DNA of 20,349 nucleotides, taken from IMG/VR virus record IMGVR_UViG_3300049914_000152, positions 1-20,349 of that record; one strand, given 5' to 3'. The position numbers and the translations under genes are program-made. The notes under the pieces are model-generated. The model made no database searches, was not told where the DNA came from, and saw only the letters and a program-made list of their open reading frames with translations. Source of the DNA: a virus. Of the stretch, positions 5,102 through 20,349 are shown piece by piece (positions within the stretch are counted from its first letter, which is position 1; every line of letters begins with the position of its first letter).

Positions 5102-5449
5102 CTAGTTGCCGAAGATTGATATGACAAGACCTGATTTCTGCGCAAGGACATTGCCGTTTTTGTCCACGATGGTTACTGCCAGCAAACCAGAATCGGTATC
5201 ATTGGACAGGATACATGAATCCAGGGTGCCAACGATCACGTAATCGGCCGGGACAGTTCCCTTGATGTCTCGTGTTTTCTTATCGCCGTATCCCGAGCTG
5301 ACAACGTAGGAACATGAGCCAGTAAAATGGACTCCTTTTGTCCCGGTCACCTGAATCCGGAATGATGGACCGTCTGGAATTGCGGCGGCACGACACGCTG
5401 TCATCAATAGAACCACAAGAATCAGCGCGAATACTCTTCCTCTTCGCAT
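5102..5449 (-). CDS. Putative lipoprotein (minus strand)
   Basis: 115 residues, the only convincing minus-strand gene. The ATG at 5447-5449 is chosen because a perfect AAGGAGGT site lies just upstream on that strand; an upstream start at 5509 would read through the promoter. The N-terminus is a lipoprotein signal: MRRGR, a hydrophobic core FALILVVLLM, then a TAC lipobox with the lipid-accepting Cys at about residue 19. The rest looks like a small beta-sandwich, with two further cysteines (in GSCSY and DSCIL) that could form a disulphide outside the cytoplasm. The pattern faintly resembles MmpS-type small lipoproteins. Its own promoter and reverse orientation suggest a lysogenic-conversion gene, possibly for superinfection exclusion; that role is inference. 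Confidence 0.75.
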   Translation of the reverse strand: MRRGRVFALILVVLLMTACRAAAIPDGPSFRIQVTGTKGVHFTGSCSYVVSSGYGDKKTRDIKGTVPADYVIVGTLDSCILSNDTDSGLLAVTIVDKNGNVLAQKSGLVISIFGN

Positions 5450-5480
5450 GTTTACCTCCTTGGCAGTACAGTTGTTTGCC

Positions 5481-5509
5481 AGTATCTCTTTATCCCTCCT
5501 TCCTGTCAA
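5481..5509 (-). promoter_or_regulatory. Promoter for the lipoprotein gene
   Basis: On the minus strand, TTGACA (plus-strand bases 5504-5509) is followed by 17 bases and GATACT (5481-5486), a good sigma-70-type match about 30 bases before the lipoprotein start. Its -35 box and that of the opposite promoter form an 8-base inverted repeat, CTGTCAAG at 5503-5510 and CTTGACAG at 5531-5538. One regulator could therefore control both directions. Confidence 0.65.
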
Positions 5510-5589: not shown

Positions 5590-5787
5590 GTGATTCAGCA
5601 TAAGTCTCACCCAGAAGTCGACGAACTCTGCAGCGCAAAGATCAGATACCTTGCCAGAACTCTACGCAAACATCCAACACAGATTATCGACGAAGCGATC
5701 GACCGGATGTTCCGGGAGTGCAACGAGCGGCCGCCGGAAGCCAATCTGATCACCGAGCAGATCCCCGAGAGCGAGCGTCTCCTGTGA
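5590..5787 (+). CDS. Small putative ribbon-helix-helix protein upstream of parA
   Basis: 66 residues from GTG at 5590, chosen because GGGGGAAGGGA precedes it and because an upstream in-frame start at 5548 would lie inside the promoter. Residues about 14-42 (KIRYLARTLRKHPTQIIDEA) resemble the helices of Arc/CopG-type DNA-binding proteins, in which LA..L..s.sqIIdeAI is a common pattern. Its stop overlaps the parA GTG (GTGA at 5784-5787), so translation is coupled. Small ribbon-helix-helix proteins beside ParA often bind the centromere or repress the operon. That function is inferred from context. Confidence 0.65.
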   Translation: MIQHKSHPEVDELCSAKIRYLARTLRKHPTQIIDEAIDRMFRECNERPPEANLITEQIPESERLL

Positions 5788-6527
5788 TTGTTGCTGTTGC
5801 CAATTTGAAGGGCGGCACCGGCAAAACCACCACCACCTTTCATATTGCTCGCTACTTTGCTTCGCAGGGTCGGACCACGCTGGCGGTCGACTTAGACGAC
5901 CAAGGCAGCCTGACGTCGCTCCTGACTCATGACCTGCCGCGAGAAAACAATATCGCGCAGATCTTCACATCGAAGTCTGACCCGCCCGTCTCCATGCAAA
6001 TCAGCCTCAACCTGGATCTGATTGGCGCGGACGATACCCTCTCAGAGTACGAATCGGGTCCAGAGTACGAGCGGTCCTTTCGACTGCGCGAACTTCTGTC
6101 GACGCTGACCTATGGCGTGACGATCTGCGATACCCCGACACACTTGGGGCTCTCTGTCACCAACGCCCTCATAGCGGCGGATTGCGTCCTTATCCCCGTG
6201 AGACCGGACCGGTTCAACCGCGACGCTATGGCTCGCCTCTTCTCGAGGATCGTCTTTGTCCGGGAACATGGTAACCCATCACTTAAGATCGCCGGCATGA
6301 TCCTCAACGCCGTCCAAGAGAGAACATCCTACGCCAAGGCCTTCGCGGCCATGCTCCGAGATACGTACGAGGCTGCCGTGTTCGAGACGATCATTCCCTC
6401 GAGCATCCGGGTTACTCAGGCGCTCGAAGAATCGGAACCGGTATGGGAGTTTTCCCCGAAGGAGAAGGTGTCCGTGGCATGGAAGTCCTTCCTGGGAGAA
6501 TTGGAAAGGACCCTATGGGATACCTAG
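5784..6527 (+). CDS. parA: ParA-family partition ATPase
   Basis: 247 residues from GTG 5784. It begins almost directly with the deviant Walker A motif KGGTGKTT (residues 9-16, signature K9 and K14), followed by the A' region AVDLDDQGS (34-42) and a Walker B-like VTICDTPTHLG near 110-120. Length and motif order fit the small ParA/Soj/MinD-type ATPases without an N-terminal helix-turn-helix. Such proteins bind DNA in an ATP-dependent way and, with a centromere-binding partner, distribute plasmids or plasmid prophages to daughter cells. It lies between two small putative DNA-binding genes, overlapping the first by 4 bases and the second by 13. No classical ParB is visible. The family call is very sure; its job in this phage is inferred. 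Confidence 0.92.
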   Translation: MIVAVANLKGGTGKTTTTFHIARYFASQGRTTLAVDLDDQGSLTSLLTHDLPRENNIAQIFTSKSDPPVSMQISLNLDLIGADDTLSEYESGPEYERSFRLRELLSTLTYGVTICDTPTHLGLSVTNALIAADCVLIPVRPDRFNRDAMARLFSRIVFVREHGNPSLKIAGMILNAVQERTSYAKAFAAMLRDTYEAAVFETIIPSSIRVTQALEESEPVWEFSPKEKVSVAWKSFLGELERTLWDT

Positions 6528-7116: not shown

Positions 7117-7235
7117 TCTCCTTGACCTATCTGATGTCCTTTGGCCTCGGCATCATCGTCGGGGCAGGCGTCGGCATCTGGCTCGTTTTCCGCAAGATAC
7201 ACTGGCTCGTGAAGTGGGGTCTCGTCGATGAGTGA
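7113..7235 (+). CDS. Single-span membrane miniprotein
   Basis: 40 residues from ATG 7113, overlapping the previous stop by four bases. Nearly the whole N-terminal half is one hydrophobic, glycine-rich helix (YLMSFGLGIIVGAGVGIWLV), followed by FRKIHWLVKW, which would lie in the cytoplasm. Its stop overlaps the ATG of the next gene (7228). A longer in-frame form from 6897 is possible but would span the promoter motif. Function unknown. Confidence 0.6.
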   Translation: MISLTYLMSFGLGIIVGAGVGIWLVFRKIHWLVKWGLVDE

Positions 7236-7515
7236 GCTGACGATCTGCGTTCAATGTGAACACATGAAAAGGCATCTTCCGGTGCCAGCTGGCTTTCCCT
7301 TACCAGATCGTGAACCCGCTAAGTGCATGGCTGGCGTTAAAATTGTTCAGAGGCTTGACTTCGTAACTGGCGCGATGAAGGACGTCTATGTCACGTGTCC
7401 CGGTCTATGCTCCGAGAGAAACCGTTTAGGAGACTGCGCTCACTTTGAGCAGAGATCTCCCGGCAAGATCACAATCATCGAAGCCCCACATCGCAAGCAT
7501 TGGTGGCAGAGATGA
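7228..7515 (+). CDS. Small Cys-rich, probably metal-binding phage protein
   Basis: 95 residues. The cysteines form a spaced pattern: CVQC near residues 7-10, then single cysteines in AKCMAG, VTCPGLC and GDCAHF. Small phage proteins with CxxC(K/E)H at the start and R...G.C..F at the end are common and probably bind zinc or an iron-sulphur cluster, but their function is not established. The pattern D.VTG...D.Y..C fits the same family. It overlaps both neighbours by a few bases, so it belongs to the 6943-8097 operon. Confidence 0.7.
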   Translation: MSELTICVQCEHMKRHLPVPAGFPLPDREPAKCMAGVKIVQRLDFVTGAMKDVYVTCPGLCSERNRLGDCAHFEQRSPGKITIIEAPHRKHWWQR

Positions 7516-8398: not shown

Positions 8399-8662
8399 AT
8401 GGATCTTCCACTATTCGTTCCTCGTTGGATGGTACGCAAGATGGTCGACGCGGCCTATAGAGAAGGCAAGCGTGAACAATTCCAGGAAGACAGTGCGGCG
8501 ATTGATCGCGTCTTCAAGAAGGATCTCGCCGACCACGGGCAATCATTACCTTCGAAGTTTGACATCGACGCACGTGCTGCCCTTGTCTATCCAGACCGTG
8601 TCTATCCAGACCGGCACAAACGAGACGACGATTGTGGCGATTATCACACGTGGCCGCGATGA
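8399..8662 (+). CDS. Unknown small protein with a short tandem duplication
   Basis: 87 residues from ATG 8399, which overlaps the previous stop (TGATATGG). The first 45 residues look helical (PRWMVRKMVDAAYREGKREQF). The segment VYPDRVYPDR comes from a 15-base tandem duplication in the DNA at about 8584-8613. The C-terminus is rich in Asp, His and Arg. No domain recognised. Its stop overlaps the start of the next gene. Confidence 0.6.
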   Translation: MDLPLFVPRWMVRKMVDAAYREGKREQFQEDSAAIDRVFKKDLADHGQSLPSKFDIDARAALVYPDRVYPDRHKRDDDCGDYHTWPR

Positions 8663-9312
8663 AGCGCCTGGGCAAGGCGGTGATCATGACATTCGCCGAG
8701 TACGAATCGTTGGTCTGTCGCTGTGAAGATGCTGAGGCGCACGCTAGAGACTTCGCGGAAGAACTGAGCCGGATGCGGGCTAACTCGGTCCTGGCAGAGG
8801 CAACTGCCTTCACGTCCGGCAAGTTCCATGCAGCTGGAGGATACGCACGTGCCCTTAAGGAACTACGCCTCAAACTCCAAGGCACCACGGCCGTGATGCT
8901 CCGTTTCATGGACTTGGCTGCGAAATGGCGCCCGCTGGTGGAAGCTCTCGAGACGTACCCAAATCAGTTCGTCGAGATCGGCTTCGACGCCGGCCTGCAT
9001 TTCCCGGTGAAGCGGTTCAACAAGGACGGCACGGAGTATCTCGCGACCGTCCAGTACCAGGAAGGGCAGTATCCGGATCATAGCCACGACCTAATGCGGA
9101 AGTTTGGAGACATGAGCGACCCTGCTGCTCCTGCTGATTTTGAAGCGGTAGGGGCACAAGTGAGGCAAGAGCGCAACGACTTGGAGTCTCAGGTCACTAC
9201 CCTGGATAGATTGCTCAGTGAGCTGCCAGATTCCAGCGTGATCGACCGAATGAGTTTGGAGTCCCGAAAGAAGGAAGTGCAAGACGAGCTCGCGGGAAAG
9301 GTGACGGGATGA
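8659..9312 (+). CDS. Coiled-coil phage protein, unknown
   Basis: 217 residues from ATG 8659, chosen because it forms the usual ATGA overlap; ATG 8686 is an alternative. Residues about 15-75 (EYESLVCRCEDAEAHARDF onward) and 165-215 (QERNDLESQVTTLDRLLSE) are long charged helices of coiled-coil type. The middle part (about 85-150) is mixed alpha/beta with HFPVKRFNKDGTEY. No catalytic motif is visible. It sits between small operon genes and shares overlaps on both sides. Confidence 0.65.
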   Translation: MKRLGKAVIMTFAEYESLVCRCEDAEAHARDFAEELSRMRANSVLAEATAFTSGKFHAAGGYARALKELRLKLQGTTAVMLRFMDLAAKWRPLVEALETYPNQFVEIGFDAGLHFPVKRFNKDGTEYLATVQYQEGQYPDHSHDLMRKFGDMSDPAAPADFEAVGAQVRQERNDLESQVTTLDRLLSELPDSSVIDRMSLESRKKEVQDELAGKVTG

Positions 9313-9611
9313 GAGAGAACATCAAGCCGTCTCGGGAGATGATCGCCGTGACCTTCCGCTACTACTGGCGCGTGAAGTTTGCCCTCGAGGAAGGGAAGTG
9401 GATCTGTTACGTTCCCTGGATGCCTCAGGGCAAGGAAGTCACAATGGACATTCCAGTCGACCATTTCAAGATGATGCAGAAGGAGCAAGATGAAGGCGAT
9501 CCCGTCCTCGGAGCCGAGCCGTACCATAACGCACGGCGATACTACCGCATGGTCGTCGTCCAGGAACTGAACAAAGAGACGGCAAAGGAGGCACCTAGTG
9601 AAGTGCATTGA
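9309..9611 (+). CDS. Small unknown phage protein
   Basis: 100 residues, ATG 9309 overlapping the previous stop by four bases. Probably one alpha/beta domain: MIAVTFRYYWRVKFALEEGKW, a proline-rich turn YVPWMPQGKEV, then PVDHFKMMQKEQDEGD. Its last 14 bases overlap the next gene. No family recognised. Confidence 0.65.
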   Translation: MRENIKPSREMIAVTFRYYWRVKFALEEGKWICYVPWMPQGKEVTMDIPVDHFKMMQKEQDEGDPVLGAEPYHNARRYYRMVVVQELNKETAKEAPSEVH

Positions 9612-9822
9612 TTGCAGCAAGCACGGCATGGTATGGTGTGCTATCGGTGACGGGATTCTGAAGTCTGAACTGGTCTGTCAACCGAAAGGAAACAGGCAAG
9701 TCATAACGGGCGCAAGCAAGGCGGTGATGGCGGCAACGGAAGCACCCGCATGGTGTCCACTAAAGCATGATTGTTGTACAGGAGTTGAACAAGCAGGCAA
9801 AGGAGGCCGACAATGGCAATAG
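9598..9822 (+). CDS. Small Cys-containing protein
   Basis: 74 residues from GTG 9598. The start is supported by AAAGGAGG seven bases upstream. Cysteines occur in CIDC (3-6), WCAIG, VCQPK, WCPLK and DCC, a spacing compatible with zinc or iron-sulphur binding. It resembles the small Cys-rich gene at 7228 in style but not in sequence. Overlaps both neighbours. Function unknown. Confidence 0.6.
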   Translation: MKCIDCSKHGMVWCAIGDGILKSELVCQPKGNRQVITGASKAVMAATEAPAWCPLKHDCCTGVEQAGKGGRQWQ

Positions 9823-15672: not shown

Positions 15673-16203
15673 ATGAAGTGGTCATCTCGCAAGCCAACGC
15701 GCGTCGACTACAGCAAGATCGCCCTTGCTTTGTTCATAGTGGCTCTTGTCGCTCTGTTTGTGATGCTGCTCTCACTCCTGGCACCCAGTGAGGCCACAGC
15801 TGGGGACATCGTCAACTTCCGGGTCGCTCGCCGGCTGCCTCCTGCCCCTCTCCTCGAGAAGGTGACGACAAGGTCATCTGAACCTATCGCAATTTTGATA
15901 TGCGAGATCACGGCCTATTCGCCTACCGTAGAAGAGACGGACAATGACCCCATGACTACTGCCAGCGGCAAGCGTGTCTACGTTGGCGGCATTGCTGCAG
16001 ATCTGAGCGTCTTGCCATTCGGCTCGCTGGTTGTCATCCCCGGGTACAATGGCGGTGATCCTTGCACGGTCATCGATACTGGCTCTGCCATCAAGGGCGC
16101 CAAGCTGGACGTGTTCCTATGGTCAGCACACGAGGCAATTCACTGGGGACGGCGTCGTAACGTGCGCGTGGAGGTCCTCTACGTTCCTAAGGCGTCGCCA
16201 TGA
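15673..16203 (+). CDS. 3D-domain (double-psi barrel) membrane-anchored protein
   Basis: 176 residues from ATG 15673 after GGGGAGGGG. Residues 16-37 form a membrane helix (IALALFIVALVALFVMLLSLL). Residues 77-172 form a 3D domain, named for three conserved aspartates: ITAYSP (79-84), D110 in AADLSVLPFGS, and D135 and D146 in VIDTGSAIKGAKLDVFL. In MltA and cell-wall-binding proteins this fold cuts or binds peptidoglycan. The domain would face outside the membrane. It is far from the main lysis cassette and among early-type genes, so it may act in DNA entry, wall remodelling or exclusion and not in lysis. Confidence 0.85.
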   Translation: MKWSSRKPTRVDYSKIALALFIVALVALFVMLLSLLAPSEATAGDIVNFRVARRLPPAPLLEKVTTRSSEPIAILICEITAYSPTVEETDNDPMTTASGKRVYVGGIAADLSVLPFGSLVVIPGYNGGDPCTVIDTGSAIKGAKLDVFLWSAHEAIHWGRRRNVRVEVLYVPKASP

Positions 16204-16403
16204 CCAACAATCAGATCATCCGCGGTCTCCTGCCAGGGCAGAAGGTGGAGCTCGTCCTAGTCGACGGTCGCATCTTCAAGGGGATTGTCGTCGGCAATGG
16301 GATGCAGACATGGGTCGAACTGACCGGCAAGGACGGCGACCAGTTCAAGATCGAGACAAGCCGTCTGTCGCGCTGCCTTGGGACGCTCGAGGTCGTGGAA
16401 TGA
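16200..16403 (+). CDS. Small Sm/Lsm-like beta-barrel protein
   Basis: 67 residues with ATGA overlaps at both ends. The strand pattern GQKVELVLVDGRIFKGIVVG, then WVELTGKDG and FKIETSRL, is what an Sm-like or SH3-like barrel would give (bent strand, Gly, second strand). Hfq-type key residues are not clear. Because this phage may use antisense RNA control, an RNA-binding barrel would be of interest, but that link is only a guess. Confidence 0.6.
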   Translation: MTNNQIIRGLLPGQKVELVLVDGRIFKGIVVGNGMQTWVELTGKDGDQFKIETSRLSRCLGTLEVVE

Positions 16404-18676
16404 GGCGCGGTCCTGAAGTATCCGGCTGGGCTGGCTCGCTATTCGGCGAACCAATAGCGGCGGCAGTCAGACTGTCTGCGATCTGCAACGGCATAGCCTA
16501 CGAGTCACTCAAGTGCAAGCAATGTGATATGCTCGCATTCTGCGATGGAAATCCCATTAGCCAGGGATGGTCAGCGAAACATCCTGCTGATTACGGCCGA
16601 ATGAAAGCAGAGTATGCGGTCCTTCCTATGAAGTCGCACGACATTAGCGTCATAGACAATGTCGTGAAGGTCGACGGCATAGTGACTGATGACAACTTCG
16701 TGCCCCTCAATCAGCCTGCCCCGGGGCTCGAATCTCCCTGGGCGTGTGACTGCCGGAATTGTGGCGAGTACCAGGGCGGGGCCTGTCCGATCTATGGCTG
16801 CATGTGCAAGCCTGACTGTCGGCAGGATCCTCCGTGTGCGGTGGAGCATTGTGTCGGCTACTGGCCGGCCAGCGACCGGTACGATAAGCTGGCGGAGGAC
16901 AGGCTGATCACGTACCTGCAGAGAGTCAGCATGCCTACGGCCAATGAGATCGCCCCATTGTTCCCGAAGGACCTACTCGCCCAAGCATACAACAAGGGGC
17001 TTATCCAGGGCGTCGAGAACGGTTACCGCTACGACCTCGGAGAGTCGACCGAAGAGTTCTACTGGCGCATCAATCACACGCCTTGGACGCTCGCTGCCGT
17101 CGCCAAACAGAATGAGCGCAATGGTATCGGGGCTTACGAACCCTTCGAGCGATGGCAGCTGCTCATGCGGCACCGGCAGAAGGCGTCACCTGCCGAAGTG
17201 CCTGTCGTATCCAGGAAAAAGCCAGCCAAGGCGAAGAAGCAGCCAAAGCTCATGAGGGCAGCCTATAATGGCAACTCTCTCCCTGGGAGCAATGCCGATA
17301 TCTGCAGTCACTGTGACTGCGAGACCTGTGGCCTGAACCAGGCGCATCTGAACTACACCGACAAGGAATGGGCGAACTGCCCGCGTTGCGGGTGTGACCA
17401 GTGCCTTGGCAAGCCGGAGCTCCAGCCAAAGACTCTCTGCGGACGGAAGTCGTCGCTCACAGCCGAGGTTATGGGAAACACCGAGAGCTGTCTGCCCAGG
17501 GAACAGCTGCACGTCGACACGGTCCAGCGTTACGTCCGGCCAGCCGAATGCCAAGAGGGGTCTTGCACTGCCTGTCAGTGCCAGACCTGTGGCAACCGCA
17601 ACCTGAACTGTGCACTCAATGGCGATGAACCGGTCCTCATCTGTTCCACGTGCTGGTTGAACCATCCGCATCATTGGAAGGTCTACGCCGCGATCGTCAA
17701 GACATGTCCTCACTGGCGCGACGCTGCGACCTTCCCCGCGGACATCCTGGCGCCTGGCCAAGGTCCGTGCCCAGCAGAGCCTTGTCAGCTCATGTACAAC
17801 GGCGAAGGTGGCCCCTGTCTCTGCCATTCCTGCAAGCATGGAACGCCCGATTGCGATAGCACGTGCGGTGTCCCCGGCTACCCGATGGAGACGGGGCAGT
17901 ATGCTTGCGGATGGTACGCTAAGAAGGAAGTGGCCACGGTCGAAGTAGTTACGCTGCCGGCTGCCGATCTCGACGTCCCGGACCTGGTCAAGGTGGGCGA
18001 CCTGGTGACCCGGTTGCACACAAGAGGCTTTGTGTACGACATTCGCAAGGTGACACACGTGGAGAGAACGGACGCCGGCTGGCAGATCTATGGTGATCTG
18101 TGGGACGACTTCCGGCACCCACGGCGGAAGAACGTCAGCAAGAACGAACCGATCATCGAGTACCCCGCCACCAGCTGGAAGGTCCAGGAGGGCAGAGTCG
18201 TTCCCATAAGTGAGAAGGTTGTCGACGCGTGCGACGAATCGATCTACAACGAGACGTTTCCGGATGAGCGGCTCATCACGCTTACCCTCGAGCAGGTTGA
18301 GCAACTGGTGGCTGTCGAGGAAGCAGAGGACATCAATGGGCCGACCTGGTATACCCACGTGTGGCTCAAGGCTGTGAACGCGAAAGGACACAAGAACGAA
18401 CAGGGTTATCTCGAGGATCCAAGAAAGCGGTGGCCACTACTCGGGCATGCGCGGTTCGTGGACACGTCGGCTGCCGCGGTCGCAAAGATTCCATCGGGTC
18501 GGCGTTCAGAGGTCTGCCAGGATGAACCCGAGTGCGAACATTGCCTCTGCTACACCTGTCAGCATCAGAAGGCCTGCCGCCTGGACAATACGCTGAATTG
18601 TTGTTCGCCATGCAAGACAACAGGTGGAGCGCACCATCATAAAGCCGTCGACTGCGAAGGATACCAGACCACCTGA
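16400..18676 (+). CDS. 758-residue cysteine-rich multi-zinc-module protein, unknown
   Basis: ATG 16400 overlaps the previous stop. About 51 cysteines are spread in clusters: residues 29-48, 116-151, 302-335, 384-436, 457-503 and 706-752. The unit C-x2-C-x-C-x2-C occurs at 302-310, 327-335, 389-397 and 712-720, with shortened forms C-x-C-x2-C at 116-121 and 473-478. The units at 389 and 712 continue alike: one Cys, then C-x2-C, a His pair and a last Cys. Between them are a helical segment (160-260), a Lys/Pro linker (265-285) and a Cys-poor domain (about 515-700) beginning VKVGDLVTRLHTRGFVYDIR that looks like a small barrel. There is no signal peptide. Zinc or iron-sulphur binding is likely. 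I do not recognise the family. Confidence 0.75.
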   Translation: MRRGPEVSGWAGSLFGEPIAAAVRLSAICNGIAYESLKCKQCDMLAFCDGNPISQGWSAKHPADYGRMKAEYAVLPMKSHDISVIDNVVKVDGIVTDDNFVPLNQPAPGLESPWACDCRNCGEYQGGACPIYGCMCKPDCRQDPPCAVEHCVGYWPASDRYDKLAEDRLITYLQRVSMPTANEIAPLFPKDLLAQAYNKGLIQGVENGYRYDLGESTEEFYWRINHTPWTLAAVAKQNERNGIGAYEPFERWQLLMRHRQKASPAEVPVVSRKKPAKAKKQPKLMRAAYNGNSLPGSNADICSHCDCETCGLNQAHLNYTDKEWANCPRCGCDQCLGKPELQPKTLCGRKSSLTAEVMGNTESCLPREQLHVDTVQRYVRPAECQEGSCTACQCQTCGNRNLNCALNGDEPVLICSTCWLNHPHHWKVYAAIVKTCPHWRDAATFPADILAPGQGPCPAEPCQLMYNGEGGPCLCHSCKHGTPDCDSTCGVPGYPMETGQYACGWYAKKEVATVEVVTLPAADLDVPDLVKVGDLVTRLHTRGFVYDIRKVTHVERTDAGWQIYGDLWDDFRHPRRKNVSKNEPIIEYPATSWKVQEGRVVPISEKVVDACDESIYNETFPDERLITLTLEQVEQLVAVEEAEDINGPTWYTHVWLKAVNAKGHKNEQGYLEDPRKRWPLLGHARFVDTSAAAVAKIPSGRRSEVCQDEPECEHCLCYTCQHQKACRLDNTLNCCSPCKTTGGAHHHKAVDCEGYQTT

Positions 18677-18796: not shown

Positions 18797-19342
18797 ATGC
18801 GAGAGAAGGTTCCTCTACTACGAGTGCCTGGGTTCAGGACCGTGGAACGAGATGGCAGATACGTGAGTGGCAGGAATGTCGTGCTGGAATGGTGCGGAGG
18901 CAATGCGCGCGACGCCGTGCATGCCTTACGTGATCAGATGATCCAACGGAACGAGAAAGAGATTGCCGGGATCGTCATTCGTGGACTGAGCAAGAAGTAT
19001 GACCTCCTCTATGAATTGGATAGGGAGACGATCGACGGTAGAAAGAAGACCGCCGTGAAGTTCAGTTGTTGGAAACATGTGCCAAGCAGGCAAGAGAAAC
19101 CGAAGAAACCGCACCACGAGGAAGTTCTTTTACCAACGGCAACGCCTGGGATTCGACAGACCCACGCCGGTTTGTTTCGGGTGAATCTGGGACACCACTC
19201 TCTCGGGACGTTCCCCACGTATGTAGAGGCTGTCTGTGCGAAGGCGCTCTACGTCGCTGAAATAGGGCCTCGTCCTGGACCCAAACCGAATGTCGGGAAT
19301 TGTAACAGTGAGAAACTTGCCAATGCTCCAGTGCGCTCCTAG
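18797..19342 (+). CDS. AP2-like DNA-binding domain protein
   Basis: 181 residues from ATG 18797 with GGAGGCGAGG just upstream. The N-terminal 85 residues are alpha/beta and unrecognised. Residues about 118-158 (GIRQTHAGLFRVNLGHHSLG, TFPTYVEAVCAKAL) follow the AP2 pattern: three short strands, then LGtF.t.eEA..A in the helix. AP2 domains in phages are often carried by homing nucleases or small regulators; no nuclease motif is seen here. The last 25 residues are Pro/Asn-rich. It ends 19 bases before the next leader-motif copy. Confidence 0.65.
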   Translation: MREKVPLLRVPGFRTVERDGRYVSGRNVVLEWCGGNARDAVHALRDQMIQRNEKEIAGIVIRGLSKKYDLLYELDRETIDGRKKTAVKFSCWKHVPSRQEKPKKPHHEEVLLPTATPGIRQTHAGLFRVNLGHHSLGTFPTYVEAVCAKALYVAEIGPRPGPKPNVGNCNSEKLANAPVRS

Positions 19343-20330: not shown

Positions 20331-20349
20331 GGAGGGGAGCTCAAATATC

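Follow-up and report, generated by a model that had tools for sequence, protein, structure and literature searches.

A cysteine-rich phage protein with a constant leader and freely exchanged modules at a fixed genomic locus

Gene and module structure

We analysed the IMG/VR virus record IMGVR_UViG_3300049914_000152 from position 1 to position 20,349 (20,349 nucleotides, hereafter the window) and, in particular, a gene encoding a modular cysteine-rich phage protein (Table 1). The gene has an intact frame and encodes 758 amino acids (aa) with 51 cysteines and 25 histidines. Its ATG at 16400 overlaps the stop codon of the upstream gene as ATGA, and its own stop codon is at 18676. It is a true gene and not a chance frame, as differences from its relatives are concentrated in third codon positions and the ratio of nonsynonymous to synonymous substitution rates (dN/dS) is about 0.1.

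The pattern CxxCxCxxC is present in full at residues 302, 327, 389 and 712, and in the abbreviated form CxCxxC at residues 116 and 473. In 300 shuffled sequences of the same composition the full pattern was seen 0.01 times on average and at most once. Residues 389-439 and 712-752 have a longer layout in common, C-x2-C-x-C-x2-C ... C ... C-x2-C ... His run ... C-x-x-[W/Y]. Residue counts and shuffling thus reproduce the initial annotation of this gene, which had reported about 51 cysteines in 758 residues, four full and two abbreviated units, and two copies sharing a longer layout that ends in histidines and a cysteine.

The cysteine modules have C-x2-C-x-C-x2-C-x(5-6)-C ... C-x-x-[YFW] in common. 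A test profile was built from the modules of relatives only, leaving out the window sequences, and compared with 200 shuffles in which each cysteine was kept in place. Module E scored 27.4 bits, the maximum in shuffles being 21.0, and is thus homologous to the other modules beyond the spacing of cysteines. Modules C and D scored 8-9 bits, inside the range of the shuffles; in this test the remaining window modules are inseparable from cysteine spacing.

Table 1. Modular gene of the window, its modules, and associated genes
Feature	Position	Strand	Evidence or occurrence
Modular cysteine-rich phage protein, 758 aa, 51 Cys	16400..18676	+	intact frame; dN/dS of shared modules about 0.1
Constant N-terminal leader MRRGPEVSGWAGSLFGEPI, core GWxGSLFxEPI	16400..16456	+	common to 13 of 13 members with visible start
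Variable N-terminal block: 4 Cys, then IDN segment	16484..16717	+	alignment; other modules there in relatives
Cys module A, 9 Cys, CxCxxC	16736..16867	+	in L001, L002, L004, L007; absent in L003, L005, L010, L023
Cys-free, mostly helical module, winged-helix-like by eye	16883..17179	+	exchanged in L003, L005, L010
Lys/Pro-rich linker SPAEVPVVSRKKPAKAKKQPKLMR	17186..17257	+	DNA CCAGCCAAGGCGAAGAAGCAGCCAAAG (17222-17248) repeated in relatives ahead of unrelated modules
Cys module B, two CxxCxCxxC units	17258..17548	+	motif scan, alignment, module map
Cys module C: CxxCxCxxC, His-rich tail, final CPHW	17549..17764	+	two allelic forms among relatives
Cys module D, CxCxxC ... CGWY	17765..17923	+	alignment, module map
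Cys-free module SH3a, SH3-like by eye, DLVKVGDLVTRLH...	17972..18184	+	alignment; deletion-truncated in L010
Cys-free module TYW, without known domain	18266..18469	+	module map
Closing Cys module E, CxxCxCxxC ... CxxC ... HHH ... CEGY	18515..18664	+	profile of other modules, 27.4 bits
Membrane-anchored 3D-domain gene, constant upstream neighbour	15673..16203	+	Pfam PF06725, 5e-13
AP2-like gene (by eye), usual downstream neighbour, then HNH/terminase	18797..19342	+	without Pfam or PHROG match
C-terminal part of separate phage gene (open reading frame 8632-9312), EQE homologue	9166..9291	+	blastp, E 2e-7 to L038, 6e-4 to L023

Relatives and searches for known families

One protein scan of IMG/VR yielded ten related loci, and two L004 modules used as queries added L023/L024. 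The L023 protein retrieved L035, L036 and L038. Finally, a DNA pattern for the leader core re-found known members and added L045 and L049; a further match, L046, is due to chance and is not a member. Wider profile scans with alignments A1 and A2 produced no additional members. Relatives were found solely in uncultivated IMG/VR contigs and in one contig binned in a Chloroflexi metagenome-assembled genome (MAG). The latter (4.2 kb, Lac Pavin sediment) contains a close partial copy and is the sole bacterial record. A Chloroflexi host was considered; the core was found in one of 400 genomes searched, namely on the same MAG contig. The large terminase subunit TerL of the phage is 38% identical to its best Chloroflexi match, compared with 35% for the best match in GenBank phages. 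The regions inspected around three of the matched Chloroflexi terminases contain no such cysteine-rich modular gene.

No match to the window protein was found in Pfam, PHROGs, NCBIfam, PADLOC, PDB sequences or 50,697 GenBank phages, and modules searched separately had no significant family match. RING, TRASH, zinc-ribbon, ferredoxin and other described cysteine-rich families gave nothing above the Pfam cut-off, the top match being Hepsin-SRCR, at E 0.032 below the cut-off. This agrees with the earlier statement that no phage family of this layout is known, and a clear match to a RING/TRASH-type or other known family, looked for as evidence to the contrary, was not found. Metagenomic viruses, where the initial annotation had suggested looking for the unit, do contain relatives sharing both modules and leader. 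We conclude that the family is real and hitherto unnamed, and that its modules are exchanged with unusual freedom.

One possibility is that the protein is a metal store or redox buffer of the metallothionein kind, or an iron-sulphur protein. Indeed, cysteine makes up 6.4-9.5% of every member. However, metallothioneins are short chains consisting largely of cysteine clusters, whereas the members are 220-858 aa long and much of the chain is made of cysteine-free modules, the longest of about 100 aa. Moreover, non-cysteine residues are strongly conserved and no ferredoxin or metallothionein profile matched, so that we consider this explanation very unlikely.

Module exchange

All-against-all comparison and the module map show 12 distinct module orders in 13 members, with 5-14 modules per member. 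Modules are swapped, repeated, reordered and deleted, and the multiple alignment of the members splits into blocks. Module borders were drawn manually on the basis of pairwise matches; the exact number of orders depends on them, but the exchange itself does not.

Several cases are clear. Positions 323-370 of L007 match positions 299-346 and 679-729 of L023, 96-143 of L036 and 412-459 of L045. Module G occurs twice in L023 and once each in L007, L035, L036, L038 and L045, and is absent from the window protein. The IDN segment of the window protein recurs in L035 and L049. The SH3b module precedes CGK in L010 and follows it in L045. RHG/DAR modules take the place of the helix-rich module of the window in L003, L005 and L010. 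There are two alternative closing blocks, SH3a-TYW-E as in the window and LLN-G-K as in L023. L036, L038 and L045 have little in common with the window protein except the leader and the type of module. The EQE module of L023 and L038 is homologous to the C-terminal part of a separate gene of the window (Table 1). We regard the architecture and the shuffling of modules as secure, with very little doubt remaining.

Small solo cysteine-rich proteins, several of them with a CxxC ... C-x-x-F layout, are also encoded in these phages (window 7228-7515 and 9598-9822; L067 5411-5671; L066 4187-4804), and that of L067 adjoins the 3D-domain gene in a related phage. Judging by layout, they could be free-standing versions of the modules.

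Selection and recombination junctions

Relative to the window, dN/dS is about 0.1 in shared modules and 0.2-0.3 in SH3a. Thus the shared modules are under purifying selection. In codons 9-19 of the leader, compared pairwise over 13 sequences, there are 88, 141 and 449 differences at codon positions 1, 2 and 3, respectively. Since third-position differences dominate, the leader is a selected peptide and more than a frozen start region. The known clamp-binding motif includes a glutamine; it is missing here, and a clamp-binding reading of the SLF in the leader was dropped.

The linker KPAKAKKQPK is encoded by 27 nearly identical bases (0-6 mismatches) that precede unrelated modules in several members and occur twice in L023. 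At the 3' end of L049, bases 1-92 of the compared stretch, comprising the IDN segment and the linker, match L035 at 90% identity as far as the linker, and bases 95-264 match the 3' end of module E and the downstream DNA of L008 at 91% identity. The two parts are joined at the linker out of frame, which cuts the protein short. In L010 a deletion runs from SH3a into the downstream DNA. The linker can thus serve as a recombination site, although one clear junction is no proof that it is the usual one. The initial annotation had described neither the shuffling of modules between relatives nor the constant leader nor the linker as a recombination joint.

The truncating junctions of L010 and L049 are what would be expected of a degenerating or non-functional locus that merely collects rearrangements. 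This explanation is largely refuted, and we give it hardly any weight, by the low dN/dS, the selection on the leader and the long frames, intact in most members.

Genomic context and alternative roles

The 3D-domain gene lies upstream in all 13 loci long enough to show that side; on the downstream side, AP2-like, HNH or TerS genes are present in 16 of 18 loci, a set in which some loci belong to the same phage. The locus is therefore fixed in the genome despite the variable protein. In the 36.8-kb genome G005 the modular gene is just upstream of the terminase and portal genes, and is followed by AP2-like, TerS, TerL and portal. This genome, the contig of L007/L009, runs through the gene at both ends and is therefore very probably circular and complete, at 36,770 bp.

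The neighbours have some features of their own. The upstream membrane-anchored gene is mosaic too, with a common N-terminal anchor followed by the 3D domain in the window and by a domain that is glucosaminidase-like by eye in G005 (reverse-complement 32956-33642; L007 about 3322). Most relatives have the AP2-like gene immediately downstream, and it comes in two or more diverged forms. Elsewhere in the window, a gene for a ParA-like ATPase (by eye, 5718-6527) is also present in G005 and no integrase was noticed, possibly indicating a plasmid-like prophage state. Between the lysis and ParA genes lies a gene for a small predicted lipoprotein with a lipobox-like LMTAC (5102-5509, minus strand), a candidate for expression during lysogeny.

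The main alternative to a host-interaction role is a nucleic-acid-binding regulator or packaging accessory. Zinc knuckles, the winged-helix-like module and histone-H1-like KPAKAKK linkers would bind DNA or RNA together with the nucleases, AP2-like protein and terminase encoded nearby, and module exchange would retune specificity. This is consistent with the position of the gene between VRR-NUC/HNH/NinG-like genes and AP2-like/TerS, with the net charge of +7 of the lysine-rich linker, and with the prediction of one module as mostly helical, the AlphaFold2 helices having a predicted local distance difference test score (pLDDT) of only about 40-56. However, complete intact members are mildly acidic (net charge -2 to -21, isoelectric point 5.8-6.8), only L049, which is truncated, and L036 in its read-through frame being basic. 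The helix-rich module is missing from most architectures. The PDB profile matches are to retroviral nucleocapsid only, at chance level (E 0.45).

The initial annotation had drawn its hint of nucleic-acid work from NinG-like, HNH and Sm-like genes in front of the modular gene. The NinG-like assignment stands weakly (PHROG, E 1e-4). The name Sm-like for the 67-aa gene at 16200-16403 is unsupported in Pfam and PDB, the only match being to an unnamed PHROG at E 0.0014. The 3D-domain gene in between had gone unmentioned. With acidic proteins and an argument resting in part on the Sm-like name, general nucleic-acid binding is weakened, and we consider this role unlikely, albeit a serious competitor.

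Another candidate role is that of a virion structural protein or cell-surface recognition factor, the modules of which set the host range in the manner of mosaic tail fibres. A constant N-terminus with a variable body is what such a protein would have. However, the family searches of the members revealed no tail, lectin, trimerisation or lytic domains, in the complete genome the gene lies outside the cluster of tail genes, and the high cysteine content would suit a reducing cytoplasm. This role appears improbable.

Proposed function

The likeliest reading of the whole, which we put forward tentatively, is a modular, presumably zinc-stabilised host-interaction or counter-defence protein diversified by recombination. 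The gene product would be a chain of small domains that fold independently, many being rich in cysteine and probably stabilised by zinc, with the constant leader in front. The leader would probably serve in docking or delivery, taking the protein into the virion or to a fixed partner of phage or host origin. The modules would be exchangeable units that bind host factors, most probably components of defence systems or takeover targets. By recombination, partly within the repeated lysine-rich linker, a lineage would alter its set of modules and so track a changing host, and the protein would act like a polyvalent counter-host protein. The zinc, presumed from pairs of cysteines, and likewise the host targets, the counter-defence role and the role of the leader, are what we infer.

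Several observations weigh against this proposal. AlphaFold2 models have a pLDDT of 29 for the whole protein (alignment of 10 rows) and 47 for the module alignment (24 rows), and thus lend no support to zinc-held folds. No member has a recognisable enzymatic domain (Pfam, PHROGs, NCBIfam, PADLOC) or a recognisable counter-defence domain of a known kind. Finally, since dN/dS within modules is low, any arms race must be driven by module exchange and not by point changes.

A more far-reaching and doubtful version is that of a dedicated diversification locus, in which the leader, cassette-like zinc modules and the repeated linker would continuously assemble multi-target anti-host proteins, some of the modules coming from the phage's own solo genes. 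If the proposed function is correct, the family amounts to a natural collection of small binding domains, probably stabilised by metal, that are mixed within one phage protein and whose targets can be tested module by module. It would also be a clear case of linker-mediated domain exchange in a phage protein outside tail fibres and lysins.

Comparison with known systems

The closest parallels are the polyvalent proteins of phages and conjugative elements, which have 2-15 domains per polypeptide in variable architectures with disparate, often enzymatic activities, are injected with the DNA, are typically encoded close to late genes, and have been proposed to be assembled from solo domains (Iyer et al. 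2017, PMC5512222). The family described here is similar in having many domains per chain and architectures that vary among related elements, in lying near late genes, in having one module that also occurs outside the protein, and in its unique uncharacterised domains. On the other hand, one cysteine-rich module type dominates, there is a constant leader, the joints are repeated lysine-rich linkers, and exchange is visible between close relatives. As enzymatic domains were sought and not found, we do not file the family with the polyvalent proteins.

Nor do we file it with the internal proteins Ip1-Ip3 of T-even phages, which are homologous only in their N-terminal packaging leader (PMC12373910). 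Both have a constant N-terminal leader, bodies without common sequence and a variable locus. However, Ip1-Ip3 are separate unrelated small proteins, whereas here one large string of beads has exchangeable modules and a putative packaging leader.

Domain-mosaic receptor-binding proteins and endolysins are similar in the ongoing exchange of protein fragments of high identity (Smug et al. 2023, PMC10684548). The present family differs in having no tail or lysin domain and a different position in the genome, and its protein class is not named in the parts of that paper considered here. If the locus is indeed dedicated to diversification, its role would be comparable to that of anti-CRISPR loci or polymorphic toxins, but packed in one polypeptide.
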